Positions 5,832-59,770 of a DNA stretch of 64,000 bases are shown here, piece by piece. The position numbers and the translations under genes are program-made. The notes under the pieces were generated by a model. The model was given only the letters and a program-made list of their open reading frames with translations, searched no databases and was not told the origin of the DNA. The DNA is from Chondrosia reniformis (taxonomy: Eukaryota; Porifera; Demospongiae; Chondrillida; Chondrillidae). The stretch spans positions 2,668,501 through 2,732,500 of the forward strand of contig OX359196.1 of assembly GCA_947172415.1 (NCBI GenBank). The letters run 5' to 3'. Position 1 is the stretch's first letter. Every line of letters starts with the position of its first letter.

Positions 5832-6325
5832 ATGTGTTGTGTCAGTCTTGAGATCACAAGTTGTGGCACAGCTGTAAATTCACTCTCGGTGTCACCAGAG
5901 GACAGTACTACTACGAGGCGGAGGTGACTGACGAGGGACTATGTAGAGTTGGGTGGGCCACGCCTGCTGCCACTCTAGAACTAGGTCAGCTCGGTGGGAA
6001 TGGACACTAAACTAATTTTGGGCGTGTCTGTTGTCTGTTAAAGACTTGTCTTGTGCATCTCTTCTCAGGTAAGGACAGGTTTGGATTTGGCTTTCGAGGT
6101 ACTGGAAAGAAGTCAAACCTCAGCCAGTTTGATGATTATGGAGAGTTGAGTTGGAAGCTGTTCTGAGGTCCATCTCTTTGTTATTGTACATGGAACAACT
6201 GTAAGTTCATTTTCATCATGAGTAACCTAGAACATCATTTTCTCCATTCATTCTGCAGTAAAAGGCAAGGAAACTAAACCTATAGTGAGAGCTTTGGATG
6301 AGGATACAATTAAGAGTCTGGTCAG
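5832..6325 (+). pseudogene. DDX1: DDX1 SPRY-exon fragment
   Basis: Matches the 3' part of SPRY exon 7 and all of exon 8 of copy B, with their intron and some following intron, placed directly after the copy 1 poly(A) site. The residues [17 protein letters not shown] and the exon 8 GKDRFGFGF are readable. It is broken: CGA became TGA in the CQSR motif, and the donor after exon 8 reads TT instead of GT. The truncated copy A ends inside the same exon 7, so the two fragments may be products of one rearrangement. Confidence 0.85.
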
Positions 6326-6716: not shown

Positions 6717-7462
6717 CTAGTTGTAGTTTTGACCAGATAGAAATTTGTTGATTTTGTCTGCCAGCTTTCGGTTGTTGTCGTGGTATGTACACTGTTTCAG
6801 GGCTTCGCTGTAGCCTTTAGTTTCCTCTCACTTGGATCCTGAGGGATAGAAGCTTTCCATGTCTTATACGAAAATGTAATTATGTTATCTTTTCTGAGTT
6901 CGTTAGAAATCTCTCTAACATCACAGTAATTGAGCATGGTTTCTCTGTTATCTAAAAAGGCCTGGATTTCTTTAGGTTTCTTCTTCTCTTTGGTAACTAA
7001 CAGAATAAATACATTTATCAGGTTTTATTAAGGTTTAAAGTTTAAAAGTACTTGCAATGAAATTCTATTAATATGTATCTGGGATAATACGTACATACAC
7101 ATGCTTATAGCATACACATTCATATTATACTGAGTCTCGTTTATTAAGTATTCTCCCTTACTATATACATAATAGAATATAAAGATTTCTTCTAACTTGG
7201 TCCAGCATACGTATATATCTTTTACATGCAAGATTCATCTTTAAAACGTTTTGAGTGGGAACCAATGTCTATAAAAAGAGAACACCTACAAAGCAACTTC
7301 AGTCACTGATCGAAGAAGACCCTCGGGGTCGAAACGTCTGATGGTTATGGAATTCAACCACCTGCAGTTGCCCCGGCAAAGGAGTATATAAGCTACATAT
7401 AATACCTTGCTGAACTTTAATTGGATTTGCTTTAGCTCCTTGACCATCCTAGAAGGTTGAAC
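6717..7462 (-). pseudogene. Broken 3' end of a third ZU5/CARD gene (exon 7-like plus CARD-like exon)
   Basis: Downstream of gene 1b lies a second, decayed copy of its last two exons. 7406-7462 has the exact 57-bp length, phase and flanks of exon 7 of genes 1b and 2b but carries an in-frame TAG. 6717-6996 begins after a ttag acceptor in the compatible phase. It encodes a stretch alignable with the CARD-like last exon of 1b (EI..FLD, then CD, then L.....II). Its frame breaks at about 6800, after which the alignment resumes in another frame (LADKINKFLSG). Both lesions point to a dead duplicate. Confidence 0.65.
7304..7341 (+). other. Hammerhead-like hairpin motif
   Basis: Reads CTGATCGAAGAA, a GACCC/GGGTC stem, then GAAACGTC. 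It resembles the conserved core in terminal repeats of Penelope-like elements but departs from the strict CUGANGA consensus. It lies between the two exons of the broken gene copy at 6717-7462. No protein-coding PLE sequence was seen here. Confidence 0.3.
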
Positions 7463-17100: not shown

Positions 17101-17902
17101 AAGTGACAATACGAAACACACTGACATGCATGCAAATGCATTAGTGGAGAAGACATTATTTTAACTACGTATGTTTACTTATAGCGTTATTTATTTCATA
17201 GAAAACATCTTAAAATACAATACAAAAACAATGAATCAAACGTATAGAGATGAGACACATAATTCTGAACAAACACACAGTTGATTTTAGATAATGTAAC
17301 AATGAAAGTTACATGTAAGAAACTAACATGTAAGTACAAAAGAGCTATTTACTGTTTTTCTTCCTCTTATGTACCACAAATTGTTACATTTCCTAGCACT
17401 TCAGCAGTTGGCTTGTAATGCAGATAATATTGTTATTGCATTAAGAGCCACTTATTTCTATTAAAGACATGGATTCTCTCAACTTTACACTATTTCTCAT
17501 GTCAGATGAAACAGATGAAATATACTATAAGTGTTTCAGTTTAGTGAATGATGATGATGTTTCAACGGCTTGCATAGTGATTATCCCAAAGGGCAACAAA
17601 CACAGATTATTGGGAAAAGTGGTATCATGCTTTATTTTGTAGGCATGCATTACACATGATGATTTCAATCCAAGTAAAATAGCATAAAATATCTCAGATT
17701 ACTTTGACCTAACCAGTAATAACAGCATACACTACAGCTAGCATTCTTAATGACTGATGGATTGAAGGTTTGGAGACCAAGATGTTCCTCAACAAACTGA
17801 AATGTACTGAAAACATATTCACTTACTGTGTTTGCACTGAGGACTACACCTCCAGTCCTCTGCCAAACAAGGACAACGAGTGTCAAGTTTTTCTGATGCC
17901 AT
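11110..17902 (-). CDS. Gene 1a: CARD-like exon-array protein, 443 aa
   Basis: Exons: 17827-17902, 16801-16995, 16029-16223, 15082-15249, 13192-13389, 12763-12885, 12347-12412, 11110-11420. They total 1332 nt in one frame. It starts MASEKLDTRCPC. All internal exons are phase 1 at both ends, so copies can be added or lost without a frameshift. Two near-identical 65-residue exons (KVLSEEECKDIALAG, ERKLVSHLSVKPIEN, FLEKERFDSDYLQRLKS) are followed by more diverged relatives (ERLLTEDEVRK; KVLDEDECKYVVSD; KELQLSVALVDL). The pattern of short amphipathic helices and the L(S/T)-E-(E/D)-E motif resembles CARD helices 3 to 6, but the family call is by eye. The last exon (EMFWEDQLKEEEFKRIL) runs to a stop. 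An AATAAA on the minus strand lies about 200 bp downstream. Head-to-head with DDX1 copy A. Confidence 0.72.
13587..14084. mobile_element. MITE with GACCGTCCATGCG terminal inverted repeats
   Basis: About 498 bp in a gene 1a intron. Left end (a)tgaccgtccatgcgataag, right end its inverted complement (cttttcgcatggacggtca). The ends extend as about 40 bp imperfect TIRs. Gene 2a at 27312 shows the empty site: its aaataaatg reads as aaataaat[element]aaatg here, giving an aaat target duplication. No transposase. Insertion postdates the gene duplication, or it was lost from the other copy. Confidence 0.85.
14270..14898. mobile_element. piggyBac-type MITE with TTAA target duplication
   Basis: Starts TTAA-CCCTTTATGCGCGAG and ends CTCGCGCATAAAGGG-TTAA. 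The CCC start and TTAA duplication are the signature of the piggyBac superfamily. Interior about 620 bp, non-coding apart from a chance short frame, with a tandem gagtgacgcatatttgcgt motif near the left end. It is inserted in a gene 1a intron. Gene 2a lacks it at the matching place (near 27490). Confidence 0.9.
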
Positions 17903-18311
17903 TGCAATGTTCTACAATACACACCTATACGTGGAGGTCAAGGAGATTATCATTGTGTAAATATAGATACAACTACAGGATTTCTATTTAAATCCTCTTA
18001 AAGTGCTAAAGTGTCACAAGCTAGAGTACTTATTTCCTATCGCCTATAGATGTGCAGTGGATATAGTACAGTATGACAGTTATATGATCCATGATCAGCT
18101 GTAGGAAAGAGTGCGCAGATCATCAGACCGGTAACTAGATTATGTCACTCATGATGAACCTCGCGATGAACTGAAAGGCGATCCAAAATTAAAGCGAGTA
18201 CGTATAAGTAGGGTGTGTCTAAGAGGCGTGACCCTCAAATAGTATGTTCTAGAGTAGGGTGTTACTCGCTATCTAAAATTATCGTTAATCGCGATCTGTG
18301 TAGTGCGCGAA
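17903..18311. promoter_or_regulatory. Divergent promoter between gene 1a and DDX1 copy A
   Basis: 409 bp between the start codon of gene 1a (-) and that of DDX1 copy A (+). It is locally richer in CG dinucleotides than the surrounding introns. About 200 bp next to DDX1 (gtagggtgtgtct, aggcgtgaccctc, ttatcgttaatcgcgatctg) is conserved in the copy B interval, suggesting shared control elements. No TATA box was evident. Transcription start sites cannot be placed from sequence alone. Confidence 0.6.
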
Positions 18312-19644
18312 ATGACTGCATTTTCAAGTTAGTCAAGAAACGAGTGTTAGCTAGCTTATAAATAGTCACAATTTGTTCCATTTTGTGTACAAGAGCTTGG
18401 AGTGTTACCTGAAATAGTTCAGGCTATTGAAGAAATTGATTGGCTGTACGTTCTGTAGATTGTGTGACAGCAGTTGAACCTATTTCATTCGTCTGTCCCT
18501 TTCCTGTACAGTCTCCCCACTGACGTACAAGCGGAGGCTGTCCCCTTAATACTTGGAGAAGGTGACGTGTTAATGGTAATTCGATCTATACTTTCAAACA
18601 GAATTTATTAGCTAAACCTGTCTCCTTCTCCTTAAATCCTTATAGGCTGCAGAGACGGGAAGTGGCAAGACTGGAGTGAGTTGTGTGTACTTGTGTGTAT
18701 ATCAACCATTGGCTAATATCAATGAATAATCTAACACATCATTTCTCAAACATGCTACATCTACTTTACAATATATGGCATATAGGGAAGTAAACCTAGT
18801 GATAGTTTTGGACGAGGATACAAGAGTTTTCTCCTTCTTCTCTTCTTCACTGGGCCAGACAACTGTTTCTGGGAATCCCACCATTCATCAGTGACCCTGG
18901 GAATATGTAATGTGACTTATAAAACGTGTATCTCTGCTGTGGCTTTATTGTCTACAAGTAACTGAATAATTTGCTGACAGTTGCTATGCAGCAGACATGT
19001 GTACATGCTATTCTTATTCATGTAGTCTATATGTGTGTGGTACTGCTGTTAGTTGCATCTGATGTCTGTGTTGTGTGATATAGGCCTTTAGTCTTCCAGT
19101 GATACAAGTGGTGTACGAAACTATAAGAGACAGAAAAGAAGGGAAAATGGGAAAAAGAAGTTGAAAATCAGGTCAGTCGACTCACATGATATATAAACTG
19201 GTACTACATGATCTACACTAACTAAAACTGTCATTTGTAGATGAACCTGAAAAGCTTGTAATGAATGTGTACGACAGGAATGATGCTTTAGGTAAGTGTG
19301 TATTTATCATGTAACCACTTGACTCACATGTTTCTGAGCTGTACAAGAAATGAACTAAAGAATGTGTAACAATGTAAAGGAGTTAATTGCACCCTCTGAC
19401 CGTATACGTAGACTCTCCATTGTAAATAGACCCATTTATCCAAAGATTTAAGCCAGGTGCAAAGGGTATGATGTGATAGGAATAATTAATCACTTGGAGA
19501 TATTATACCTGACCAACCAAGTGACCAATGTCTGATCTTGATTGTATAATATGACCTGTAAAGTGTGTATCTCTCCTGTAGCTATAAGTCCTGATGGTGT
19601 GCTGTGTCAGTCTCGAGAGCACAAGTCGTGGCACGGCTGTAGAT
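18312..19644 (+). pseudogene. DDX1: DDX1 copy A, truncated 5' end (exons 1-6 and part of 7)
   Basis: Same exon structure as copy B: 18312-18327 (MTAFS), 18394-18445, 18512-18575, 18646-18675 (Walker [10 protein letters not shown]), 19086-19161, 19243-19292, then SPRY exon 7 from about 19582. Exon 7 breaks off at about 19644 after the residues CRST and joins unrelated sequence resembling the preceding intron. It keeps the promoter and an intact P-loop, so it could be transcribed, but it cannot make a helicase. One family residue differs: LGEGD where copy B has LGGGD. Confidence 0.85.
18784..18908 (+). repeat. R1 dispersed repeat in DDX1 copy A intron
   Basis: Plus-strand R1 copy, matched by the copy at 35289-35414 in the same intron of copy B. 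It was present before that duplication. Confidence 0.7.
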
Positions 19645-19867
19645 CCACTGCAGCCAGCTGCAAAGGGGCATGATGTGATAGTTAATAAAAGGAAGAATGG
19701 AGGAACTACAAACATTTTCTTTTGATGAGAGCACTATTACAAAACATAACTTGCAAAACATTTAACCCCCTATGTGTCTGCATGCTTTAAGTTTATACTT
19801 CAAACAAGTTTTAAAGATAATACTCATAAGTACTTAGCTTCAGCAGACATTTTCATATTCTAATCCA
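19645..19867. other. Junction sequence after truncated DDX1
   Basis: About 220 bp following the break in exon 7. The first 40 bp (cagccagctgcaaaggggca) resemble DDX1 intron 6 near 19450. The rest shows no gene or recognisable repeat. Confidence 0.5.
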
Positions 19868-20410
19868 CTAACTTATAATTGTGATTGTAAAGAACATGTA
19901 CAGCCACTTGAGATACAGCGGCACAACATAATTATTTCCCATAAGTTTGAAGCAGTTAGAAGAAATCCTTAGCAGCAGCCATTTGGTCTTACTTTTATCC
20001 TTAGGGGCATCATTTAACACACGTTTAACTATATTTGATTCTGTTAACTTCATTAGCCTATGCCAGTACATGAGAGCCTTCAATTTTACCCTCCATCTGA
20101 CTGGCATCCATCCACCTTCAATTTCTAGTGCTGTAATATGATGGTGAATGCCTACCCCCTTAAAACTTCCTAATGCCCTATTCTGTGCACTACTTAGTGC
20201 TCTACATTCAGTCAATACACCCCATACCTCTGCTCCATAGTCCATAACAGTTGTTATGATGGTGTTATACAACCTGGTAAAGAGCAGATATGTATTGGGG
20301 ATCTATAGATCTCTAAAACTACATGCAGTGCACTAAAGGCTCTGTTACTCTTGGACAGGTGGTCCTGCATCATTCCATTATAATCTAAAAACTCTGAGGT
20401 AGGTATGCCT
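19868..20410 (-). mobile_element. Non-LTR retrotransposon relic (C-terminal reverse transcriptase region)
   Basis: A 134-residue open frame contains TTVMDYGAEVWG followed by QNRALGSFKGVG and LEIEGGWMPVRWRVKLK, then MYWHRLMKL. This is the spacing of the region after the catalytic reverse-transcriptase core in LINE elements (YG.E.WG ... QN.ALR). The upstream part continues in pieces to about 20410 (SEFLDYNGMMQDHLSKS). No RT catalytic box or complete ends are present. Decayed fragment downstream of gene 2b. Confidence 0.75.
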
Positions 20411-20591
20411 ACGTACAGATGTAGCTGTCAATAATGTCTATCTCTGTTAAATATAATAATATAGATAATTTAAAGAATACAAGAATATTACTATGTATTA
20501 CTGAATTTAACTAGTGGAGGTACTATGTACAGTATGTATATACATATACGTAGTGCTAATATATACTATATAAAGGGAAAACACTCCAATT

Positions 20592-23500
20592 TTATGGACA
20601 TTGGTCTTTAGCAATTTCTTTAGCTAGTTGAGTCATATCTAGTCCTGGTTGCTTTAGCTTGTTACAGAACTCTGTCCATGTTGGATTCTTAGTGATCTCT
20701 AACCATTTGTTGAGAATCAATATGCACTTGTCCTGAGGTGTTAATTCACCAGAATGTATGGAGAGGACATAGTCCTTAACACCAAGGACTATTCCTAATG
20801 GCAGCAATTTGCTTGATAGCTTGCCAACATAAGGTAATAACGTTTCTATTGTAAGTGGACCCCTCACAGCCAGCTCTGTGTCTATACCATACGTACATAG
20901 GAAAGTAATAAACATATTTGTATAATATAACTTAAGGTACATACATTCGTATACTGTATATAACTTTTTGCCTTCTTAAATAGCACACATTATTTCAATT
21001 AAGGTTCTTATTAACTGTTAAGACTAACACATACGGTAGGCACGGAAATTATCTTTACATTCCGTAAGGTACTACCTTAGGAACTACCTGGTAGGAACCA
21101 GGTAGTACCCTGTAGGACTCGGGTACTTCGCGAGGGTAATTGTAAAGTACCCGTACTAAAATAAAAGTACCTTTTCAACCGATAAGTACCTCGAAAGTAC
21201 CTCGATCGTACGATCGTAAAAAGTACCCGTATTTTTGATCGGTATTCACCGAGCGCAATGTGTAAATAGCTAGTTGCCTTAGGTGGCTCAATGACACACG
21301 AGCTGTTAATAGTTTGGTATTTAATAGCCTTCCGAGGCTGTCTAAAACTACCCAGTTCCTACCATAAAAGTAATACTATTTTACCCCGATAGTATATTAA
21401 TCGTTGCTACAACGCAAACACTAGTACTGGTAGCTTTTTAAAACTACCAGTACTTATTTTCAAATACCGGTACTTCATTTTCAAATACCGGTACTCTGAA
21501 TCAATGTTCGGGTAGTTACAACTACCCACGTAAAGATAATTTCCGTGCCTACCGTAGTGACGCTTTTCAGCTCAGCAATAAACATGAAGCAGAGCATAAA
21601 CTAGAGTAAGCTGGCTAGATCTGAGATTTTTAAAAGTACATTTTTGGCAAACAGTGAAGAATGTACATAATTAGAATAATTAGTATATAAGCTGTGTATA
21701 CCTTGCTGATCTTTTGTTGGATTTGCTTTAGCTCCCGAACCATCCTTGAAGGTTGAAGCTACATTCAACAAGAGTACATTTTAAGAGGAACTAATTGACA
21801 GATCAAACAAATTAAAAACTTACCTTTTGTGGAAAGATTACAATGAAAACTGAAACCGTCAATAGATTTAACTCCTTGTAGAGACACATTTTCATAAGGT
21901 GGATTTTTAGAAGTGGACCCACAATTTGGTACAAGAGTGAGAAATGGAGGATACATCTCTACTTTAAAGTCATCTTTTAATTTCTTTTTATTTCCAATTT
22001 GATACACAATTTTATTCTTCTCAATCTGTATACACAATACAAGGCCAATCCATGACATGATCCAAAGAGTTTATTACTCCATATTAACAGCCAAAAATAG
22101 CACCGAAATACACTATACACCAATATTAGTAATTACTCAGCCACAAAACCACCTTACAGGTCACTTTATATAATCTCCAATCAATACATGTAGTTCAGAA
22201 TCTATACAAAGTCCTAACTTGATGCTGTGTACTACAAACCTGTTGGGCTCCAGAAAATACACCATGGCAACCGGGTTCTAGCTCACACTTCAGTGTTTCT
22301 CCGCCTTCCAAAAATATGAATTCACAAGACTGTCCAACTCTGCGAAAAACTTTCCAATACTTTTCTAATATCTAGAGGATGTACATAAGTTATGTAAAAC
22401 CAGAAAACATTTCTAGAAAGAGAAAACACAAACCTTGATCCAAACATTATGTTTGTAAGTAGCAGCTATTCGTGTGGTTATACTAGTATCCTTTGACTCC
22501 CACTTCCAAGCAGAAGCAAGATACTCAAAAGGATCATTTAAACGTGACGCTTTAGTAAAGAGGGTGCAATGTCCTGTGATGAGGAAATCCCTGCCATTAC
22601 CTGCCCCTTCATAGTCCTCAAATGTGAACTTGTTATTCACAGGAGAGTGAGGTGCCATCATCATCTTAATTTTGTCACCATCTGCACTCCAGTGAGGAAG
22701 GTGGAGGGTGATGGGACTCTTGATGTCTTTACTGTTGTAGTGGATATACACCACAGGGCTGGCCAGTTTATAACCAGCTGGTACCACCAGAGGACCATCC
22801 ATTATAATACCATATCTGATCTGCACCTTCCTCTTAGCAACAGCTCCCTCTGGTACCTCCAGATAAGGGACGTCACTATCCACTGGTCTGCCCCCTTCCG
22901 GTTCCAAACTGAACCTTCCTCCAGTTTGGTCTACTTGAAGAGACTGTATCCCAAATGGGATCCAACACAGCTGGTCTAGTTGCTCTTCATGCTCTGTCAA
23001 TTAGAGAGTGTAACAGAAGCAGTATTCATGCATATGAGGATGCTTGGGTCCTCCATATACATAGAGATACGTAAAAAATTAATGTACGTATTGCACACAT
23101 ACATACAACACTATACACACCTATTTCATGAGGGGAGGGGTCACCAGGTTCTTTGAATTTAACTAGTGGAGGTACTATGTACAGTATGTATATACATATA
23201 CGTAGTGCTAATATATACTATATAAAGGGAAAACACTCCAATTTTATGGACATTGGTCTTTAGCAATTTCTTTAGCTAGTTGAGTCATATCTAGTCCTGG
23301 TTGCTTTAGCTTGTTACAGAACTCTGTCCATGTTGGATTCTTAGTGATCTCTAACCATTTGTTGAGAATCAATATGCACTTGTCCTGAGGTGTTAATTCA
23401 CCAGAATGTATGGAGAGGACATAGTCCTTAACACCAAGGACTATTCCTAATGGCAGCAATTTGCTTGATAGCTTGCCAACATAAGGTAATAACGTTTCTA

Positions 23501-24242
23501 TTGTAAGTGGATCCCTCACAGCCAGCTCTGTGTCTATACCATACGTGCATACATAAGAAAGTAAGAAACATATTTGTATATTTATATATTGATTGATTTA
23601 ACTTAAGGTACATACATACATATACTGTATATAACTGTTAAGACTAATGTATTGTATGTATGTGATGTTTTTCAGCTGAGCAATAAACATGAAACAGAGC
23701 ATGAACTAGAGTAAGCTGGCTAGATTTGATATGTCTAGTTGCTCTTCATGGTCTGTTAATTAGACGATGTAACAGAAGCAGTATTCATACATATGAGGAT
23801 GCTTGGGTCCTAATTAATGTACGTATTGTACACATACATACAACACTATACACACCTAATTCATGAGGGGAGGGGTCACCAGGTTCTTTTGGATCCAGTG
23901 ACTCAGAACCAGACACTAGAGAACTCTAACAAAGCAATTGATACACAATATTTAGTAATTACTAAATGATAACGTAGTTTAACACTTTCTTACTTACCTT
24001 CTGAAGTATCTTTTGTTTCTCAGAGAGAGTTGCTACAGGGTCCATAAACTTTGATTTCATTGACTCAATTGATTTGGGAGACTTCAATTGTTTGGTACCA
24101 GAAATGGCTACAATCATTAAAATTAATTACTCTTAATTATTTAATAATGAACTTTCACAATTGTGTAGTTAAACTTACTGTCTTCATATTCTTCTGATGA
24201 CAATATACTTTCAGACTGTATATTTGTGGGAAGATGAGACAT
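20592..24242 (-). CDS. Gene 2b: ZU5-domain protein with C-terminal death domain, 494 aa
   Basis: Exons: 24179-24242, 23998-24107, 23856-23925, 22434-22993, 22240-22371, 21824-22025, 21702-21758, 20592-20881. They total 1485 nt, open throughout. The first seven exons are paralogous to gene 1b with the same phases. Residues about 104-200 are ZU5-like (GGRFSLEPEG, RKVQIRYGIIMDGPLV). The last exon instead encodes a death domain of about 90 residues (IETLLPYVGKLSSKLLPLG, ILNKWLEITKNPTWTEFCNKL), with the typical tryptophans of helix 5. ZU5 plus death domain is the UNC5/PIDD/ankyrin order. The middle region would be where UPA lies, but I cannot confirm it. Intron insertions: a MITE at 21034 and a duplicated death-domain exon at 23244. 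No membrane segment, so probably an intracellular adaptor. Confidence 0.8.
21034..21554. mobile_element. 521-bp MITE with 25-bp perfect TIRs and TA duplication
   Basis: Begins cggtaggcacggaaattatc and ends with its exact inverted complement, flanked by TA on both sides. The interior is full of short ggtac/gtacc palindromes. It is inserted between the last two exons of gene 2b. The duplicated segment at 23155-23725 carries the same surrounding sequence without the element, so the empty site is visible in the window. Confidence 0.9.
23155..23730. repeat. Duplicated 3'-end segment of gene 2b inserted in its own intron
   Basis: Near copy of 20515-21033 joined to 21555-21630, that is, the death-domain exon with flanks but without the MITE. 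It lies in the intron between exons 3 and 4 of gene 2b. The neighbouring stretch at 22980-23155 is repeated at 23735-23885, including a partial exon 3 end (ccaggttcttt). Confidence 0.85.
23244..23533 (-). CDS. Extra death-domain exon, possible alternative last exon of gene 2b
   Basis: 290 bp, the same length as the gene 2b last exon, with the same acceptor (tatag|ACACAG) and the same stop. The encoded death domain differs by about one residue (VRD for VRG). Exon 3 of gene 2b ends in phase 1 and this exon starts in phase 1. Splicing 3 to this exon would therefore give an in-frame short product: about 81 N-terminal residues plus the death domain, without ZU5. Whether it is used is unknown. Confidence 0.6.
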
Positions 24243-24715
24243 TAAATAACTTATATAGTTAATAAGTATATAAAATAAACACAAAAGTAATGGTAGAAAC
24301 TGTTGCTTGATTATATTATTAGTCTTATTACTGAAGCATAATATTAGTAATTTTATAAAACCAGCTATTCAGTGATCTTAAAATTCAGCTTTGTTAAACT
24401 TTTAAAACTGCATTTTACTAATTAAATTATCACTATATACATACATGGTAAATAGTCAACTGAAATATTGTTCAGTGGAATGTTCAAATTTATGATTTGG
24501 CAGATTTTATTTTGCATGGTTCTCCAATCATACATACAATGATTAAGCTTAATATCAAACAGTTTGTAGCAGGAGGTTAGTCTTAACAGTCAGTTCACAC
24601 AGAGCAGTAAGCATCATTAACAAAATCCTGAATGGACATTTAACACAGGAAACACTTCTAACAGTAGTGTATGTATATTTACCTTTGTCTTAAAATGTGG
24701 AGTTGAAAGGGAGGT

Positions 24716-27700
24716 CTAACTATAGCCATGTGTCCTGAAGGTTGCAGTTGCAGGTCGTTTCTCCTTCAGTATTCTCTTAAATTCCTCTTCTTTCATCTGA
24801 TCTTCCCAAAACGTTTTTATGATTTCTAGAGAGAAAAAATTATACTAGAATGTATGTACACAAGTAAATAGTACACCTTAAGGAAACTCCTTCAGTGTAA
24901 CCACTTTGACTGTAGAAGTATCTTGTTAAAATTTCCACTACCTATGCCTACCTATATATAGCCTTGATTAGTGCAACCCTATTATGCTAGATGCTCTTAA
25001 TTTTGTAGAGTGTTTGTAGAACAAAGGGATTACACTAAATATAAATGTAATTTTGATCCCATTCTAATCTTCCTATATCCACATATAATGTAAATAAATT
25101 AAATGTAACAGCTCTTGATTAATCATATGAAATCATAACAACATAGAGTGTTATTAGAGAATGTAACTATGACAGATAATCCTATGTTCAGTGGCAATTG
25201 CAACAACCATATCACCTCTCTAGTATGGTCACTAGCTTAAACTAATACTTCAATTGAGTTGTAAAAATATATACTCCATCATATACACTTAAACACCATT
25301 CATCATATACACTTAACTTAAACTCCAATAAGATGATCAACCATCTAATACAGTCAGATCCTAATGGTGACCTGGTATATACAGGATCCAATGTATTCAG
25401 ATATTATAACTTATCTACGTATAATGCTTGCTCATAATATGTACCGACCATGCTAAAAGGTAGTAACATATTCTTGCAATTTTATTAATTTTACTTAACA
25501 GATTAACACCATTTTTTATCGTATAGGAAACAATAGATATAACCAAATGTATACCATTTTAAGCTGCATGAGAAAATGGAACAAATTCAAAACTTTAATG
25601 CCCGATTTCTTGTTTAACAGCAACAGTTCATTAATGAATATGATACTTTGGATTGTTGTATTCACGGAAATTCTATTGAATGATACCAAGAGCACATTTT
25701 CTGTTGGAAACCAAAAGTGTATACCTTTTCGCATGGCTAAGAACAATGGGATATATGTACGTATGTATATAACCAAATGAATGTATTACAGCATAAAAAC
25801 GAGAAATTGAGCTTAAACTTAGTCTGGTTTTCTCGTACAACAACAGCTTAGTCATGCAACTCTGTATAATTGAATAGTTCAAACCACAAAAACTTACAAA
25901 TATGACACTTTTGATTATGGTATTCATTAACACTACGGAAATTTATTAAATGATACCAAAAACGGTCACATATGACTATAAGAAAATGCACACACTGATA
26001 TATACTTAACAGAATACTGACTTATTCTTTGTGGATACTCTCTTGTACTAACCTCCTAACTTCTCCCCTAACTCAGAGGGTTCATCAAATATATGACAGT
26101 GTGCCCATTCGACAGAATCTGAAATAGATCCATGAAAATGTCTGGAGAAGTCATCTCTCAGTCTGTCAGTAAAGTGTCCTCTTGCTATAGTATTTACTGT
26201 ATATTTCTCAACTTCTCCAATTATAACTAATGGAAGGACCATGCAGAAATAGGATGTAAAGATTACTTCAACATTATAGACGTTCAGTGGATAACACTTT
26301 CCCTAACCTTTCAATTTCTGCAACAGTACACCTTCTTCATGGATAACATGGTACTGTTTAAATTCGAATTTATTAAAGCAAACAATCTCTGCAACCACCA
26401 AAGAGACTGTATGAAGATATGAAACCATTACCTTCACACATTCAGTACTTATGTATATATCATTTGTATACTTACAACATAGGTGTGATGGTAACTTCTG
26501 TAGAATTTGTAATCTGTTCAGGTATCCTTTACTAGTCAGATCAACTAGAGCTCCAGACAGCTGTAAATCTTTACTTTGAAGCAACACTTTGGACAGAACT
26601 GTATCAATGTTGTACATGTAATAGAGATGTGATATTAATTGAGCATCAAATGATAATCAATTGGAATCTACGTAAGTGATTGTAAACACATTCATATTAA
26701 CAAACTACTTTGCTGAATTAATTTTGATATATTGGAGGTTTTATAAATTGGCTTATCAATAGTTGAATGCTTAGTACATTCTCATTTTTCCATTACAAAA
26801 GGTTATGAATAGAAACAGGTAAAGTAAACAATTTAGCTCAAGTGTGGCAGCTGAACTGAACATGTAAGGTTGACAGTGTTACACACACAGGTTAATCCAG
26901 CTAACAGAATGACTCACTTTGTAATGCTTGAAAGGCCTTCCTGTCAAAGTGCTCCTTTTCAAGATATTGAATCACTTCTTTGATATTTTCAAATGGCTTA
27001 ACCCACAGACATGAGACTAGCCTCAGTTCCCATTTCCAAATATCTGAGACTACATATTTGCACTCATCCTCATCCAAGACCTTTGCTTTGTGTTGACAAT
27101 ACAGCAGCACTGATAAAGAGAACAGTTGTGGTTAGTACTAGTGATACATTTTAAAATTGAACTTTGCTGAACTCCGTTCAAGTTGCATTGTACTCGGTGT
27201 TAAATCAATATACTGAGAGATTTAGCATCACATAATATATATATATACTTTTGAGATTCTTTTATTTCTATATGCAACAAATTAGTATGAACTACAGATT
27301 ATATCTGAAATAAATGTATATATATCTGAAATGTATGGCTATTCCCAATTTCAGTTGTGTCAATACGTACATGCTTTTGGCCCGTAGAACAATTTTGAAT
27401 ATTACAGTAGTCACTAGTACAGTATTATCAATATATACTTATACTGACTGACCTTATCTGCTATTTATTATGCATCTGAAACACAAAAATATTATCCTTT
27501 CTATAATGGTACACACTTTGTAATGTTTCCAGAGTAAACAAAATATCACTTAATTGAAACAATGTACTCAGTGGGAAAAGCTTACGTACGTATATCTTTT
27601 AAAGCTTATCTTTTATATCTATATACACCGTTGCTGGGGCAACCGCTTGTGTTTATTTTTCGTAACCGGGATATAACAGAATTTACGAAACGATATACTG

Positions 27701-30700
27701 CCATCGTGTATATGGATTTTATACACCGCCGGGGTATAACTAATACATATATCTTTTAAAGCTTGAGAAGTGCATTTGATCAGTTGATACTTTATGTAGA
27801 AACAACAACACAGTATTGTTGTATATGAATGTTAAACCTTTTAGCCTTGATACTTCTATACTATTCTTTTCGTTTCTCCTTAACAACTCTTCTATCCTCT
27901 CCATATCTGAGACTGACTTGTTGGAAGCATTTATAAAACTGTAATCTCCGTCCTTTCTTACTTCCTCTTCTGTGAGCAATCTCTCTTCATATAATGATTT
28001 GAATGCTATATACAGTATATACAGGAAGAAACAAGACAGAATATAGTTCAAATACAATACATACAATATAATTACAATACATACATACATTGGCAAGCTG
28101 AACAGCTTATTAATGGTAGTACGTAAATATGTAAATATGAAGAAACCCTATAATATAGATGTCGATATTAAGACGGTTTAATGGGTGAAAGTTTATCCAC
28201 ACAATTAGATTATAATTTAGTTGGAAATTGAAACAAGCTGTATGAATATTTTAACATTTAATCAATTAGAAATGCTTAATCTCTGTGATATCAAAACACG
28301 TTCTACACAAATCAGCAAATAATCTATACAAAATGGCTATTTACTTGGACTTTTTATTTTGCTATTAAAATAACATCATGTCAATTGTCAAACATCTAAA
28401 ATTTGAACTGTTTCACAACAGTAAGATTACAATTACATAAGAATATGTATACTCAGAGTAACTTACTCTTCAAACACTGCAAGTGATCACTGCCAAACCT
28501 CTCCTTCTCAAGGAACTGAACTACTTCTTGGATATTTTCAATTGGTTTGAGAGACAAATGAGATACAAGCTTCCTTTTCCAATCTCTTCTTGCTAATGCT
28601 ATATCTTTACACTCCTCTTCACTTAGGACTTTGTCTTTATGACGAAAATGATGCAAAACTGTTGAAAGACAAAACATTTTACTGACACAGATGAAAAGAA
28701 GACAGAGTCAATGTAACCTTGAATAAATCATTAACGGGTGCACATACCTTTATACTCAAACTGAAGTGACTTTACAAAATAACATGAAACACACTGATAC
28801 ATACATTAGTGGAGAGATATTATTTTAACTATACTGTTATCTCATTTCATTAGAAAACATCCTTAAAATATTATGCAAGTCGTTGAGGCATGCACCTTGT
28901 ATCCCACTTTCGACACTCTCTAGATTAACTGAAGATAATATGCTTGCTATACCATTCTGCCACCTCATAGCTAGATTTGGCCATAATTGGGTGCTTTCTC
29001 AATACATGCATAAAAGAATTTGATGTTTCACTACATTCTTAAATTCTTACATTAGAAACGTTTAATCTTCTACAAGAGCTTGCACATTTGGGGTCCCATG
29101 CCATATTCAACAAATCACATTAATGTAATATGTAAATTCCATAACATTCTACACACATTTAAACTTGGAACTGTTTCATAACAGTAAGATCACAATTACA
29201 TAAGAATATGTATACTCAGAGTAACTTACTCTTCAAACACAGCAAGTAATCACTGCCAAACCTCTCCTTCTCAAGGAACTGGACCATTTCATGGATATTT
29301 TCAATTGGTTTGAGAGACAAATGAGATACAAGCTTCCATTCCCAATCTCTTTTTGCTAATGCTATATCTTTACATTCCTCTTCACTTAGGACTTTGTCTT
29401 CATGATGAAAATGATGCAAAACTATTGAAAGAGCAAACATTTTACTGACACAGATGAAAAGAAAACAGAGCCAATGCAACCTTGAATAACTCATTAACAG
29501 GTGCACATACCTTTATACTCAAACTGAAGTGACTTTACAAAATAACATGAAACACACTGACACATACATTAGTGGAGACACATTAGTTTAACTATAGTGT
29601 TAACTAAGTTTACTTATATGTATAGTGTTATCTCATTTCATAGAAAACATCCTTAAAATATTATGCAAAACAATTGATCAAACATAGTGCTTCATAGAGA
29701 CGATACACGTAATCCTGGACAAGTAAAGAGTAGATAGCGTTGATTTTAGATGATGTAACAATGAAAGATTTCATGTAAGAAAATGTTGATGTTAAGTACA
29801 AAAGGGCTATCTACTATTATTCTTCCTCTTATGCAATAGCCTTAATTTGATATACATAATACAGTAATGATGAACATCCAATGATGCCTAATGACATTAT
29901 GTACATCCGTTTACAGAATAGAGAGGACTATTATTAATTTTTGCAGACTTTCACTTTTTTAATGATTCATTTTACAAAATATACACTTGACTTGACACTA
30001 AAAATAAGTTGCTAAAAGAACAACATTTAGAGAAATTTTAATAAGCAGTGTAATATTTATACACAGTAGGAAGTCACTTATCCGAACACATCGGGACTGA
30101 AGGGTGTTCAGATAATCGATTGTTTGGATAATTGAAGTTTTGACTCTAACAGCATTGAAAATACATGTTTGCAAACATAAATTATAAAATTGAACACAAT
30201 ATAACTTTAAGCATTTGTCATTTATTCTATCGTTTGTCATATATTCTATCGTTATTTGTTCTTCTAATGAACCAATCTTCGTAGTTATCGGTTAGCTTTG
30301 TCGTTTTCCCTTACGTTGTTTGGGTTGACGTTTGACGCTTATCGTTTACAGATAAATTCCTGAAGTTTCCAATTTTCGTTTCCCGATTAAACCTATATAC
30401 TCGTGTCGGTTAACCTTTTTCGTTTCACCGTTACCTTTTTTTGACGCGTACTGTAAGTGGGCGTGGAGTCTAGGAGTGGCATTCGGTTAATCGACGTATT
30501 CGGTTAAGTGACATTTGGATAATCAACGTTCTACTGCATAGTAAAATGTATAGAAAGTACAAAGTGTCAAGTGTGTTTAGCTTTTATAGTTTGCCTCCAC
30601 AATTACAATCTATAGTATATACGTACATTAATTACACAATTCACACCTCTTTTAAGCTTAAAAGAGTATTTATTGTGACAGTCATATATTTGTATATAAA

Positions 30701-33183
30701 GTCAATGTAGAGTACAATTATCTACTACTCAAACTAAACAGGCCACTTCTGCTTCTATAAAATTAAACTGGACATTACAGACCCCTATATTGACTGATTA
30801 GTGGAATACTCAGATACGTACTAAGATACTTTAGATATGTTCATACATATATACGTATCTACACGGATTATCAGAATGGCTTGCATAGTGACTATCCTAT
30901 GCAAAACGGCAACAAACACGTATGGGAAAAGTGATATAATACTTTTTGTATAATGTATATATGTATGCAAAGTGGTATTATGCTCTATTTTGTATATGCG
31001 TGCATTACACATGATGATTTCAATCCAAGTCAAATAGCATAAAATATCTCAGGTTTTACTCATTAAACCAATAGATATAAAGCCAATTACATTTAGTATA
31101 ACTACAAATACACATGTACACTTGCAGGAACCTTGTATCCTACTATCTGACACTATCTAGATTAGCTTACTCTTCAATGGCCGCAAGTAGTAACTTCCTA
31201 AGTTTGCTTCCTCAAGGAATTTGACCACTTCTTGGGTGTATCCAAGTGACTTGACAGATAGATGGGACACAAGTTTCCATTCCCAATCCAAACCAGCTGA
31301 CCCTATATCTTTACACTCATCTTCACTTAGAATCTTTTCTTTATGATGACAGTGCTGCAAAACTGTAAAACAATGGAAAATCCATATAGACTGTAGATTA
31401 TACATACATTGACATTTAACTGTAAATTGGCAGAATATTATCTCATCTTCAGAGTGTGGAATGGTTTCCTGCTTTCTAGTTTAGATTCTGGTTCCATAGT
31501 CAGTAGGTTCAATCTAAGTACCACAATGTTACATTTCCTAGCACTTCAGCAGTTGCCTTGTAATGCAGATAATAATATTATTGCATTAAGAGTTACTTAT
31601 TTCGATTAAAGACATGGATTCTCTCAACTGTACACTAGTTCTCATTTCAGATGAAACAGATTAAGAAGTGTTTCAGTTAAGTGAATGATGATGCATGTTT
31701 TAAGAGCTTGCATAGTGATTATCCCAAAAGGGCAACAAACACAGAATATTGGGAAAAGTGGTATCATGCTTTATTTTGTAGGTGTGCATAATACATGATG
31801 ATTTCAATCCAAGTAAAATAGCATAAAATATCTCAGGTTTTATACTCATTAAAGCAAGATATAGAGCCAATCACATTTAGTACAACTACAAAACCACATG
31901 TACACTTGCTGGAACCTTGTATCCGACTATCTGACACTATCTAGATTAGCTTACTCTTCAACCGTTCCAAGTGATAACTGTCAAAGTTTGCTTCCTCAAG
32001 GAATTTGGCCACTTCTTGGGTGTATTCAAGTGACTTGGCAGATAGATGGGACACAAGTTTCCATCTCCAATCATCACCAGCTGATCCTATATCTTTACAC
32101 TCATCTTCACTGAGAATCTTTTCTTTATGATGACAGTGCTGCAAAACTGTAAATCAATGGAAAATCCATATAGACTGTAGATTATACAACATTGACATTT
32201 AACTGTAAATTGGCAGAATATTATCTCATCTTCAGAGTGTGGAATGGTTTCCTGTTTTCTAGCTTAGATTCTGGTTCCATAGTTAGTATAGGTTCAATCT
32301 AAGTACCACAATGTTACATTTCCTAGCACCTCAGCAGTTGGCTTGTAATGCAGATAATAATGTTATTGCATTAAGAAGCACTTATTTCTATTAAAGACAT
32401 GGATTCTCTCAACTGTACACTAGTTCTTATTTCAGATGTAACAGATTAAGAAGTGTTTCAGTTAAGTGAATGATGATGCATGTTTCAAGAGCTTGCATAG
32501 TGATTATCCCAAAAGGGCAACAAACACAGATTATTGGGAAAAGTGGTATAATGCTTTATTTTGTAGGCATGCATTACACTTGATGATTTCAATCCAAGTA
32601 AAATAGCATAAAATATCTCAGGTTTTACTCATTAAATCAAGATATAAAGCCAATTACATTTAGTATAACTACAAATAAACGTGTACACTTGCTGGAATAT
32701 TGTATCTTACTATCTGACACTATCTAGATTAGCTTACTCTTCAATGGTTCCAAGTAATAACTGTAAAAGTTTGCTTCCTCAAGGAATTTGACCACTTCTT
32801 GGGTGTATCCAAGTGACTTGGCAGATAGATGGGACACAAGTTTCCATCTCCAATCCTGGCCAACTAATCCTATATCTTTACACTCATCTTCACTGAGAAT
32901 CTTTTCTTTGATATGAAAGTGCTGCAAAACTGTAAAACAATACAGAGTATCTCCACTCCTTTTTTAACTTACACTTGACCTAACAACAGCATACACTAAT
33001 ATTAGTGTTTTTGTTGGGTAATGACTGATGGATTGAAGGTTTGGAATTTCAAACCAAAAATGTTCTTTAACAAACTGAAATCTACTGAGACCATTTTCAC
33101 TTACTGTGTTTGCACTGAGGACTACACCTCCAGTCCTTCTCTGCCACACAAGGACAACGAGTGTCAAGTTTTTCTGATGCCAT
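24716..33183 (-). CDS. Gene 2a: expanded CARD-like exon-array protein, 565 aa
   Basis: Exons: 33105-33183, 32738-32929, 31955-32146, 31171-31362, 29230-29421, 28467-28658, 27838-28005, 26918-27109, 26476-26598, 26053-26118, 24716-24825. They total 1698 nt in one frame; all internal exons are phase 1-1. It starts MASEKLDTRCPC like gene 1a. Five 64-residue CARD-like exons are present against two in gene 1a: three of one subtype (KILSEDECKDIG, KLVSHLSAKSLEYTQEV) and two of the gene 1a subtype (KVLSEEECKDIAL, HLSLKPIENI). The 27838-28005 exon lost the gtaag donor of its paralogue and now has only gtttaa. The last exon is shortened by an internal deletion and stops early (THGYS). A working protein is plausible but these two changes leave doubt. 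Head-to-head with DDX1 copy B. Confidence 0.7.
27606..27762. mobile_element. About 157-bp insertion with repeated flank
   Basis: Relative to gene 1a (near 14990), gene 2a has extra sequence between two copies of tatatcttttaaagctt. Inside are facing motifs tatacaccgttgctgggg and tttatacaccgccggggt. Probably a small mobile element with a 17-bp target duplication, or an unequal-exchange product. Confidence 0.45.
30064..30536. mobile_element. pogo/Tigger-like MITE
   Basis: Ends cagtaggaagtcacttatcc at the left and ggataatcaacgttctactg at the right, inverted relatives of each other with the CAGT...ACTG and TTATCCGAA signature of pogo-type elements. Internal repeats of the ttcggttaa type are present. 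473 bp, no coding sequence. It lies in the gene 2a intron between the two CARD-like exon subtypes and is absent from gene 1a. Confidence 0.75.
31141..33020 (-). repeat. Tandem 783-bp genomic unit carrying CARD-like exons
   Basis: Exons at 31171, 31955 and 32738 are spaced 784 and 783 bp apart, and their introns are also repeated (tttcctagcacttcagcagt, caaacacag, gatgatttcaatccaagtaa). Gene 1a keeps one copy of this intron sequence (17380-17700) next to its first exon but no exon of this subtype, so the array has expanded here or contracted there. Confidence 0.85.
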
Positions 33184-33417
33184 TGCAATGTTTTATAATA
33201 CACACCTGTACGTGGAGGTCAAGGAGATTATCATAATTATATAAATATAGATACAACTATAGGATTTCTATTTAAATAAAGGTCTTATATCGATATACTT
33301 ACATATACTATGTAGTATTGAAACTTTAAGAGGAATATGACACAATTGAGTGGCTAGTAGCTACAGTACCTATACTAGGGCACCTACATATTTATATTCA
33401 ACTGCTCTATGTAACAC

Positions 33418-33810
33418 AGGCCTGCCAACTCTCCCGGATTTTCCGTGAATCTCACGGTTTCAGTCGAAATCTCACTCTCTCACGGTGTAGGTACTCAAAC
33501 TCACGGATTTTGGGTACTCAAGCAGCCACAGATTTTTTCTGCATGTTAAAAAGTGTAGTCTATCCCCATTCCGTGGATTAGCTGCGACTGTAAGTATGAT
33601 GCAATCTCTAGATGACGTCAACCTTGCATATTGCACAATATATGCAGGTTAAGTACAGGCACTTAGCCATATAAACATATACAAAATAATGTATATTGCT
33701 GGCTGGAAATGCAAATGTATGGCTGACGAGGCAAATTTAATTATCTTATTATTGGCTTCCTATGGCCTACTGGGTCTCAAGGTTTTTGGAAAATTCGGGT
33801 TGGCAGGCCT
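33418..33810. mobile_element. MITE with CAGGCCTGCCAAC terminal inverted repeats
   Basis: Left end acaggcctgccaactctccc, right end gggttggcaggcctgt. About 390 bp, non-coding, with internal ctcacgg repeats. Flanking tatgta occurs on both sides and may be the target duplication. Superfamily not certain (hAT-like ends). Absent from the gene 1a/DDX1 copy A interval. Confidence 0.75.
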
Positions 33811-34531
33811 GTATGTAGGTAGCTAAGGGTAAAACAGACTCTTATGGGATCATCATGTAGTGACAGACCGTATGTTGTAAAAACCTGCGCAGATAATTAT
33901 ACGGGCAAGTAGATTCACTCACGACGAACTCGAAGACGATCCAAAAGCGAAGTAGGGTGTGTCTAGGAGGCGTGACCCTCGAATAAAATGTTCTAGAGTA
34001 GGGTATTACTCGCTATCAGGGAGTACGGTAGTACTCCCTATGTAGGGATGACACGGTTTTTTTTTGTTTTCCCCATACATTGGTATAGGAGCGAAATCCC
34101 GAAATAGGCCGAAAATCGACAAAACAAGGCTATGTATAGCTAAATATACAATATACATACTCTACATAGACCTTAAAAGCAAGCGAATATGTCCCGCTGG
34201 CGAAATAATAAACTTTAAAAATTCCCATTTTCGTCTTCTTCATATTCTTCTTCTTCTTCTTCTTATTCTTCGTCAGCCATAACTAAAAAACTATATAAGC
34301 TTTTGGACTAATTGTTACACGAAACTACTGCAAATTTTCCGAGCTGTATTCTTTTGTAGAAGCGAGAGCGATAACGCTATTATTGAGCATGGCGGTTTTC
34401 ATGACCCTAGAGTCAAGGCCTCAATAAAGTCGCCATTTTAATGACGTCATAATCAGTCGAAGATTGCGAAACCAAAATGATTTTAATTATACGAATCTAA
34501 TTCCTAGCCCATGCTCCATAAAAGTACAGAA

Positions 34532-34776
34532 ACTAGAAATATTAAAAATTTTCTACAAAAATAGTGAAGATGTAGGGATGGCATAAAAAGTAGAGAAACA
34601 AGAAAGGGATGTTACACAGTGAAGCATTAGCTATACATGAATCCTAAAAGCAAGGGTGTTGTATGATTCATGCACAGCTAATGCTTCACTGTGTAACATC
34701 CCTTTCTTGTTTCTCTACTTTTTATGCCATCCCTACATCTTCACTATTTTTGTAGAAAATTTTTAATATTTCTAGT
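34532..34776. mobile_element. Fold-back element: perfect 101-bp inverted repeat in DDX1 copy B promoter
   Basis: Arms 34532-34632 and 34676-34776 are exact reverse complements as read, around a 43-base loop that itself contains further pairing (tgaatc/gattca). The right arm ends directly at the restored promoter sequence (cgaattatcgtt). A shorter related piece (tgtagggatgacac) lies at 34041. Recent fold-back MITE, or an assembly artefact. Confidence 0.85.
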
Positions 34777-34813
34777 CGAATTATCGTTAATCGCGATCTG
34801 TGTAGTGCGCGAA

Positions 34814-37800
34814 ATGACTGCATTTTCACGTTAGTCAAGAAACGAGTGTTAGCTAACTTATAAATAGTCACAATTTGTTCCATTTTGTATATTAGAGCTT
34901 GGAGTGTTACCTGAAATAGTTCAGGCTATTGAAGAAATTGATTGGCTGTAAGTTCTGTAGCTTGTGTGACAACAGTTGAACCCATTTCATTCGTCTGTCC
35001 CTTTCCTTTACAGTCTCCCCACTGACGTACAAGCGGAGGCTGTCCCCTTAATACTTGGAGGAGGGGATGTGTTAATGGTAATTCGATCTATAGGTCTCTC
35101 TACTTCAAACAGCAGTTAATCAAAGTGGTATTAGCTAAACCTGTCTCCTTCTCCTTAAATCCTTATAGGCTGCAGAGACGGGAAGTGGCAAGACTGGAGT
35201 GAGTTGTGTGTACTTGTGTGCATATCAACCGTTGGCTAATATCAATGAATATTCTAACACACCATTTTTCAACATGCTACATCTACTTTAGAATATATGG
35301 CATATAGGGAAGTAAACCTAGTGAGAGCTTTGGATGAGGATACAAGAGTTTTCTCCTTCTTCTCTAGTCCACTGGGCCAGACAGCTGTTTCTGGGAATCC
35401 CACCATTCATCATTGACCCTGGGAATATGTAATGTGACTTATAAAACGTGTATCTCTGCTGTGGCTTTATTGTCTACAAGTAACTGAGTAATTTGCTGAC
35501 AGTTGCTATGCAGCAGACATGTGTACATGCTATTCTTATTCATGTAGTCTATATGTGTGTGGTACTGCTGTTAGTTGCATCTGATGTCTGTGTTGTGTGA
35601 TATAGGCCTTTAGTCTTCCAGTGATACAAGTGGTGTACGAAACTATAAGAGACAGAAAAGAAGGGAAAATGGGAAAAAGAAGTTGAAAATCAGGTCAGTC
35701 GACTCACATGACATATAAACTGGTACTACATGATCTACACTAACTAAAACTGTCATTTGTAGATGAACCTGAAAAGCTTGTAATGAATGTGTACGACAGG
35801 AATGATGCTTTAGGTAAGTGTGTATTTATCATGTAACCACTTGACTCACATGTTTCTGAGCTGTACAAGAAATGAACTAAAGAATGTGTAACAATGTATG
35901 GATTGAAAAAGGAGTTAATTACACCCTCTGACCTGTATACGTAGACTCTCCATTGTAAATAGGCCCATTTATCCAAAGATTTAAGCCAGCTGCAGAGGCT
36001 ATGATGTTATAGGAATAATTAATCATTGAGAGATATTATACCTGACCAACCAAGTGACCATGTCTGATATTGTATAATGTGACCTGTAAAGTGTGTATCT
36101 CTCCTGTAGCTATAAGTCCCGATGGTGTGCTGTGTCAGTCTCGAAATCATAAGTCGTGGCACGGCTGTAGATCCACTCTCGGTGTCACCAGAGGACAGTA
36201 CTACTACGAGGCGGAGGTGACTGACGAGGGACTATGTAGAGTTGGGTGGGCCACGCCTGCTGCCACTCTAGAACTAGGTTAGCTCGCTGGGAATGAACAC
36301 TAAACTAATTTTGGGCGTGTCTGTTGTCTGTTAAAGACTTGTCTTGTGCATCTCTTCTCAGGTAAGGACAGGTTTGGATTTGGCTTTGGAGGTACTGGAA
36401 AGAAGTCAAACCAGAACCAGTTTGATGACTATGGAGAGGTGAGTTGGAAGCTGTTCTAAGGTCCATCTTCTTGTCATGGAACAACTGTAAGGTTGCGAGT
36501 AATGTAAAACACCTTTTTTTGCATACTACATTCATTCCACAGTAAAAGGCCTATAGGAAACTAAACCCACAGTATAAGCTATATATGAGGATACAAGAGT
36601 CTTCTCTTTATTCTTCTGCTCCACTGGGCTAGGTAGCTGTTTCTGGGAATACCACCCTTCATCAGTGACCCTGGTTGGTGTATGGAATATTCCCTTATAG
36701 GCATTTGGCAAGAATGATGTCATCGGATGCCTTATTGATTTGAATGAGAATGTCATATCTTTTACCAAGAATGGTGAGTTTATGATTCAAACATAATGCA
36801 AATCGTCCATGCGTTGTATATAGTATCTTGTATACTCTGTTATTTATTGTAGGTATCTTTCTTGGAGATGCCTTTTATATTTCAGACGATTTGGCAGGTG
36901 AACCATTCTTTGCAGCTGTTACTCTTAAGGTCAGTACATTGGGCTCAACCTGATGTGATAAGGGATTTCTTCTACTTAACTTTCAAAGGCTTTTTTCCTG
37001 CATTTTTTCCTCATGTACCATTTGCTAAGGAAATTAGCTAATTATTGTTTTAGCCATTTTGTTTTATTTTCTTAACACATGTAATATTGTTAAGTTTTCC
37101 TTTTTCTAATTTAATTAATTAGAATGCTGAAATGAAGTTTAATTTTGGAAATAAACCTTTTAAATGTAAAGTTCCGGTAAGTTCAAGTGACCCAAGAGAT
37201 ACTCCCTCCCATTACCCAGTTTATAGTGACTCCATCTTGATTATATTACAATACTCTCTATACTGTATGTGTCTCAATTTTAAGTCATACGTAATTCAGG
37301 AAATTTTAAAATATTTTTTCGTGGTTGGCGTAAACCACAAAAATTTCTTGCACAAACTTTTTGCTTGTTTATTTGTTTGTGGGAATCAAGAAATGCAGGT
37401 TTAGGCCAAGAAATATTTCAACACGATAATTTCCCAAATTACGGTACGTACGTGTACTGGTACCCTCTTTTATACTATTTGCAACTCCCATTATATACCT
37501 CCTACAGTGTCACTGCACCAGTTGAATAATGCATACTGTATAAGTGTATTTATTCACACATGTACTGTTTAGGCTGGTTATACTGCATTTTGCAAAGCCA
37601 AGAACTTAGTACAACCCACGAGAAAAGTAGCATATAGTAAGTTTGCACGAAGTAAATGTGCATAAGTTTAATCACAATATTCCCATTGCTAATATACGTA
37701 CCTGTACAGGGTACGGCTCTTAAGTAATAAACATACGTATGTACATGGCAGTAGCTATCTGGTATACAAGCTTATTGTAGTCTGTCATTGTGGTTGTATC

Positions 37801-59769: not shown

Positions 59770-59770
59770 A

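Follow-up and report, generated by a model that had tools for sequence, protein, structure and literature searches.

In the genome of the sponge Chondrosia reniformis, copies of the DEAD-box helicase gene DDX1 lie head to head with genes composed of repeated CARD-like exons and, probably, a ZU5 exon, which we refer to here as array genes. We describe this divergent pair in a window of 64,000 nucleotides (C8:2668501-2732500) and follow its amplification through the 117.38-Mb assembly, which comprises 15 contigs, including one (C15, 17451 bases) that codes for mitochondrial proteins. Coordinates are those of the window, with negative values lying upstream of it, and flanks of 110 kb upstream and 40 kb downstream were added.

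A divergent gene pair forms a repeated unit

As originally predicted, array genes beginning on the minus strand at ATGs 17902 and 33183 face DDX1 genes beginning on the plus strand at ATGs 18312 and 34814. Comparison of the window with itself shows the block at 7.4-19.65 kb recurring at 21.7-36.2 kb, with a per-piece identity of 70-95%, mostly at least 77%. The block therefore does repeat within the window, but the number inferred at first, a pair duplicated twice, is too low: the C8 cluster consists of five units between about -76 kb and about +45 kb, with DDX1 scraps farther out, and a whole-genome search finds two more clusters on C11. The pair is present about 17 times, on two chromosomes, in an amplification that is real, large, recent and orderly, and that exceeds the two-copy picture in the window. 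All 124 array exons found, only three of which contain a stop, fall within C8 2.59-2.70 Mb, C11 1.36-1.58 Mb and C11 2.15-2.27 Mb, and strands are uniform in each cluster, with array and ZU5 exons all on one strand and the counted DDX1 5' ends all on the other. The C8 units differ in exon number, carrying two to nine type A and zero to four type B array exons, and in the leftmost, array exons and a DDX1 fragment are present but no ZU5 exon was found.

The pairing holds well beyond the window. Genome-wide, we counted 18 DDX1 5' ends (17 through one exon and one through the next exon only), and 17 of them diverge from an array gene, with the nearest upstream array exon within 15 kb and no intervening DDX1, although one of these stands 10 kb from its array exon; at the single exception, a truncated DDX1 sits between the 5' end and the array exon. 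Because so many 5' ends are arranged this way, we regard pairing as a property of the amplified unit, and the proposal that the two genes were duplicated together is borne out. In four of the five intervals measured, the ATG-to-ATG distance is 410, 415, 457 or 465 bp, which falls within the 1 kb between starts used to define bidirectional pairs, taking ATGs as a proxy for transcription starts; the fifth measures 1631 bp.

The two intergenic intervals of the window, in unit 4 (17903..18311, 409 bp) and unit 5 (33184..34813, 1630 bp), had been thought to share promoter sequence, and they do match around the array start exon (17717-17993 versus 32981-33277, 85.5%), in a 114-bp core (18160-18273 versus 33918-34017, 79%) and over the last ~35 bp 5' of the DDX1 ATG. 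Conservation is not continuous, however, since extra sequence interrupts the unit 5 interval, among it a palindrome at 34532-34776 (a 118-nt inverted repeat, 97% complementary, with a 9-nt loop) just 5' of the DDX1 start. When eight promoter pieces were aligned, a block like GTAGGGTGTGTCTAGGAGGCGTGACCCTC appeared in six, the stretch 5' of the DDX1 ATG was common, whole or partial, to all pieces reaching the DDX1 start, and the middle of the interval proved to be of at least two types. Copies on both chromosomes have in common the sequence beside the start of DDX1 and that surrounding the array start exon, and recent common descent would be enough to account for this.

Structure of the array gene

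Splice sites and phases of the array gene were read by eye, and all its exons lie on the minus strand. In unit 4, a start exon (MASEKLDTRCPC..., 17827..17902) with a phase 1 donor is followed by two CARD-like type A exons (16801..16995, by homology and splice reading, and 16029..16223, by homology) and by two array-related exons, c15 (15082..15249) and c13 (13192..13389), both placed by homology and splice reading. The ZU5 exon (9706..10268, splice sites read) precedes an exon in the position of a UPA domain (9511..9642), an exon leading towards the terminal exon (8706..8907, splice phases read) and a terminal exon of the kind we call CARDc (7725..8038, splice phase and stop read). A remnant of a second terminal type, CARDc2, follows at 6800..7024, with a fuller copy in unit 3 upstream of the window. 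Unit 5 has a start exon (33105..33183, its end set by analogy with unit 4), three type B exons (31171-31362, 31955-32146 and 32738-32929), two type A exons (28467-28658 and 29230-29421), c15 (27838..28005), c13 (26918..27109), a ZU5 exon (22434..22993) and a terminal exon of a third kind, "DD" (20592..20897), which is death-domain-like by eye only; apart from the start exon and "DD", these were assigned by homology. A second "DD" copy (23247..23552) lies 5' of the unit 5 ZU5 exon, within a duplicated region (23154-23639, matching 20502-20968), and splicing to it would yield a short array-DD protein.

The start exon has a phase 1 end. Phase 1 boundaries flank each array exon, c15, c13 and both exons that come after them, and the exon after those begins in phase 1. 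From c10.6, which lies two exons before ZU5, through the terminal exon, phases are again consistent, and a stop closes the last exon. The original prediction placed a separate ZU5 gene after the array gene; a ZU5 exon does follow in both units, but the two stretches are probably one gene rather than two.

Domain identity

The unit 4 ZU5 exon matches Pfam ZU5 (PF00791) at 9685-10275 with 23.6 bits against a cut-off of 21 (E 6.6e-5), and the unit 5 copy, at 17.1 bits, falls below it. For the spliced piece, Pfam reports only ZU5, and it does not identify the exon after ZU5 as UPA. Cleavage occurs at HFS in PIDD, and the FIIND cleavage motif has been given as SF/S; where HFS or SFS would be expected in the array gene, we instead placed, by eye, the residues HCT, which are seen in the four C8 ZU5 copies, in L013-L016 and in the consensus of 13 copies. 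At C4:8465610-8466236 (L011 and L012), another ZU5 protein of this sponge carries two ZU5 matches and HFS motifs and looks PIDD-like by eye.

For the array exons, the CARD-like reading is modestly supported by structure prediction, though sequence profiles do not match it. The modelled exon, the middle type B exon of unit 5, encodes 65 residues predicted by AlphaFold to form five helices, with the first CARD helix apparently absent, and of 40 PDB chains aligned to it, the four best are CARD entries. No Pfam match was obtained for the window copy of CARDc, and no Pfam Death match for the terminal "DD" exon.

Copies of the ZU5 and terminal exons

The ZU5 exon has 46 matches in the genome: 26 near-full copies at 82-100% identity without a single stop (15 on C11, four each on C8 and C2, two on C7 and one on C10), five pieces of close copies, three of which have stops, and 15 distant relatives at 32-45% identity. 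On C2, C7 and C10, the whole-genome search found neither array exons nor close DDX1 exons; two C2 loci and one C7 locus, each of 3.6 kb, match the unit over the ZU5 exon and its neighbors. A tree of 13 ZU5 copies is star-shaped, with one supported pair.

The terminal exons come in three alternative kinds, and at least one lies no more than 9 kb downstream of 16 of 19 cluster ZU5 exons among the matches scored. CARDc belongs to a large family (150 of 342 candidate exons were scored) found genome-wide, C2 0.59-0.66 Mb and C7 0.36-2.76 Mb being examples. For the "DD" exon, a relative with 60% identity over 86 residues (55% over a longer alignment) lies at C9:4762055, 2.4 kb upstream of a helicase match on the same strand (C9:4764694). 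This relative falls in a tandem cluster at C9:4754460-4795594 (L007 and L008) with five helicase exons in open frames of 305-742 aa, within which lie a "DD" exon and a terminal-domain exon. Two cluster helicases other than the member adjoining the "DD" exon were scanned, and both are RIG-I-like (RIG-I_C-RD).

Selection on array gene exons

For nine of eleven exon sets, the pooled ratio of nonsynonymous to synonymous substitution rates (dN/dS) between paralogue pairs is 0.28-0.52, where pairs are non-independent, the sets for types A and B share members and the method, a simple one, tends to give lower ratios when transitions prevail. Compared with neutral simulation, run for types A and B on C8 copies only (21 of 27 and 9 of 14 rows, the rest being cross-hits or partial) and for ZU5 on 13 of the 26 near-full copies, stops are depleted: copies with stops number 2 of 21 for type A (7.9 under neutrality), none of 9 for type B (3.6) and none of 13 for ZU5 (5.7). 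Amino-acid changes number 50 against 64 expected for type B and 116 against 143 for ZU5.

Most modelled DDX1 copies are broken

DDX1 was detected by colinear alignment to human DDX1 and then with a composite sponge query, and high-identity exons were found on C8 and C11. The copies are recognizable DDX1, with a DEAD core split by a SPRY domain and colinear with DDX1 throughout; no copy in the window, however, has an open reading frame over its whole length. Judged by their exons, about 11 copies are full-size, of which C8 has three and C11 eight. Spliced alignment gave models for seven of these copies, with one exon examined further in five, and five of the seven models are broken, including those of all three C8 copies.

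The two DDX1 genes of the original prediction are rightly assigned to this family, but neither is whole. DDX1-B, at 18.3 kb (18312..19667, plus strand), is a 5' fragment covering residues 1 to ~131, with an in-frame TGA where exon 5 ends and a cut at ~19650; another C8 fragment, at -61 kb, has the same ending, and 5 of the 18 DDX1 5' ends lose their match at one identical residue of the SPRY exon. DDX1-C, at 34.8 kb (34814..45042, plus strand), is full-size but has a TGA at 35684, close to residue 80, provided that exon 5 continues there as it does in human DDX1; it has also lost 8 nt at ~44240, near residue 640. DDX1-A, whose 3' part occupies 1..5692 of the plus strand and whose start lies at -4147, is also full-size by spliced alignment and sequence, with 1 nt missing from a run of A near 4895 (about residue 645). 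Upstream of the window, DDX1-0 has a TGA at residue 370. Among the C11 copies, L045 is frameshifted near residue 202, no match was found in L048 for parts of at least three exons, and L046 and L047 stay open as far as the sequence analysed reaches (about residue 728 in L046 and 718 in L047). With poorly aligned codons masked (644 of 716 retained for L045 and 637 of 716 for L048), dN/dS between L046 and L047 is 0.08, from 21 synonymous and 6 nonsynonymous differences, whereas private changes are mostly nonsynonymous in DDX1-0 (9 to 2) and DDX1-C (9 to 1). In the tRNA ligase complex, the catalytic partner of DDX1 is described as RTCB, for which five exon matches were obtained genome-wide, all at a single locus.

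Smaller DDX1 remains on the plus strand are a SPRY-exon scrap with stops at 5840..6145, assigned by homology, and DDX1-D at 60137..61707, split by satellite repeats and continuing past the window at 66411-66818. Repeats also lie in DDX1 introns: a 31-bp minisatellite occupies 1150-1695 (17.5 copies) and 40068-40772 (22.8 copies), a 41-bp minisatellite lies in another intron at 41888-42283 (9.5 copies) and 60235-60548 (7.5 copies), and the 7.7-kb first intron of DDX1-0 contains a tandem duplication at -42617 to -40996 (L021; a 917-bp overlapping match, 99.8%). A 123-bp satellite is found at 59398-59772 and, in the opposite orientation, at ~66.9-78 kb downstream (L022 and L023), with a further satellite at ~84-94 kb.

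Discussion

Taken together, these results incline us, at slightly better than even confidence, to see here a recently amplified divergent pair in which the death-fold-like gene has been under selection while DDX1 is mostly a decaying passenger. That gene would comprise a start exon, CARD-like phase-1 exons in varying number, a ZU5 exon and a terminal domain of one of three kinds, and it may have been retained and diversified because its product is a multivalent scaffold in innate immunity or cell death. Its array would oligomerize, the ZU5 region would restrain the terminal domain, and the terminal domain would recruit partners through like-with-like contact. DDX1 would have been carried along in the duplicated segments, mainly as a decaying passenger, while a few copies would still function as ordinary sponge DDX1. 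The divergence of 17 of 18 DDX1 5' ends, the uniform strands, the confined and nearly always open array exons and the 26 open ZU5 exons out of 26 favor this account, as do the depletion of stops, the variation in exon number, the alternative terminal exons, the decay of DDX1, the ZU5 copies on C2, C7 and C10, where neither array exons nor close DDX1 exons were found, and the single RTCB locus. The CARD entries among the top structural matches and the 60% likeness of "DD" to an exon beside RIG-I-like genes point in the same direction.

Several observations weigh against it. Sequence profiles recognize neither CARD nor Death in the array and terminal domains: array exons, single or joined, do not match Pfam PF00619 (CARD), and of the 25 CARD matches listed across the genome, none falls in the clusters. 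Of the five AlphaFold models for the array exon, three have a mean predicted local distance difference test score (pLDDT) of 54-63, the best Foldseek E value (3.4) goes to a non-CARD target, and the model of the terminal "DD" domain is unusable (pLDDT 42). Amino-acid changes in type A array exons are at the neutral level (162 observed, 163 expected), so that constraint on this type rests on stop depletion. The single-gene model is incomplete, since exons c11.4 and c10.6 join out of phase and both have a dN/dS near 0.9; either the model lacks an exon or there are two genes here, one per stretch. As for DDX1, the lesion in DDX1-A, lying in an A run, could be a read error, about four full-size C11 copies lie outside the seven modelled, and the strong mutual constraint on the two open copies L046 and L047 means that more than one DDX1 may matter.

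That constraint, together with a head-to-head layout kept on two chromosomes and start-proximal sequences common to copies on both, would also suit a pair that works as one: a bidirectional promoter would drive both genes together, DDX1 would sense or process RNA, the array gene would build the signaling platform, and selection on the pair would have driven amplification. Vertebrate DDX1 has been described in a double-stranded RNA-sensing complex with DDX21 and DHX36, which lends this idea some appeal. We nonetheless consider it improbable, as most modelled full-size DDX1 copies, including every one on C8, are broken, 5 of 18 5' ends are truncated, one DDX1 exon stands 10 kb from its partner, another 5' end has no partner of its own and ZU5 copies exist without DDX1. 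The joint immune function first proposed for DDX1 and the death-fold gene is accordingly unsupported, RTCB having remained at one locus. More unlikely still is selection-free segmental duplication, in which unstable, repeat-rich regions of C8 and C11 amplify whatever they contain, the genes are bystanders and open frames reflect youth. Satellites and minisatellites within and beside the C8 array, the star-like ZU5 tree and the near-neutral amino-acid changes in type A exons all suit such a process; the depletion of stops in three exon sets, the dN/dS values of nine of eleven sets, the alternative terminal exons and the presence of ZU5 on three further chromosomes do not. Finally, alternative haplotypes or collapsed repeats set in tandem by the assembler are a very improbable source of the clusters: separate haplotypes do exist in the data, with a primary k-mer completeness of 69%, but this is a HiFi assembly with a BUSCO duplication of 0.6% (PMC12181767), the units differ by ~5-23% over most pieces and also in structure, and copies lie on two chromosomes, with ZU5 on five.

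The product of the death-fold-like gene would resemble the ZU5-UPA-death-fold proteins PIDD1, UNC5, ankyrins, NLRP1 and CARD8, in which ZU5 is likewise followed by a small terminal domain, here possibly a death fold, and the proposed gating of that domain would be similar. It differs from these in its N-terminal CARD-like run of variable length and in having no FIIND over cut-off, no UPA match and HCT in place of HFS or SFS by eye, the HFS motif being present in other ZU5 proteins of the same genome. The array exon model resembles the CARD scaffolds of innate immunity, such as MDA5/MAVS, ASC, caspase-1 and CED-3/CED-4, in that its top structural matches are entries with CARDs, and differs from them in its five helices, its variable-number tandem arrangement and its lack of a Pfam CARD match. 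The locus also resembles sponge repertoires of NOD-like receptors (NLRs) and RIG-I-like receptors (RLRs), such as the Dysidea avara NLRs, as an expansion of genes with presumed death-fold domains; unlike those, no NACHT domain or leucine-rich repeat was recognized in the scanned exons, and the neighbor is DDX1 rather than an RLR. Amphimedon RLRs have been reported with an N-terminal death domain (PMC8998645), and this, with the "DD" relative near the RIG-I-like cluster on C9, makes like-with-like contact between RLRs and the array gene conceivable. A further step, in which this would be a sponge RNA-surveillance locus with DDX1 and a variable CARD-like scaffold co-regulated and co-amplified and the terminal "DD" coupling to RIG-I-like receptors carrying the same domain family, strikes us as doubtful in much the same degree as amplification without selection.

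To our knowledge, DDX1 is familiar only as a single-copy housekeeping gene. The sponge copies belong with this SPRY-containing helicase of the tRNA ligase complex, being recognizable from residue 1 to the C-terminus, and stand apart in their amplification to 18 5' ends, their mostly broken modelled full-size copies and their head-to-head death-fold-like neighbor. From its sequence, the locus is an unusual candidate immune locus for which an immune function is plausible. The tie between DDX1 and an expanding death-fold-like gene in an early-branching animal may mean that a housekeeping gene was swept along by an immune-type expansion, or it may mark a new link between RNA handling and death-fold signaling. 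As the presumed scaffold's valency differs from copy to copy, the tuning of signaling by valency becomes a testable question in this sponge.

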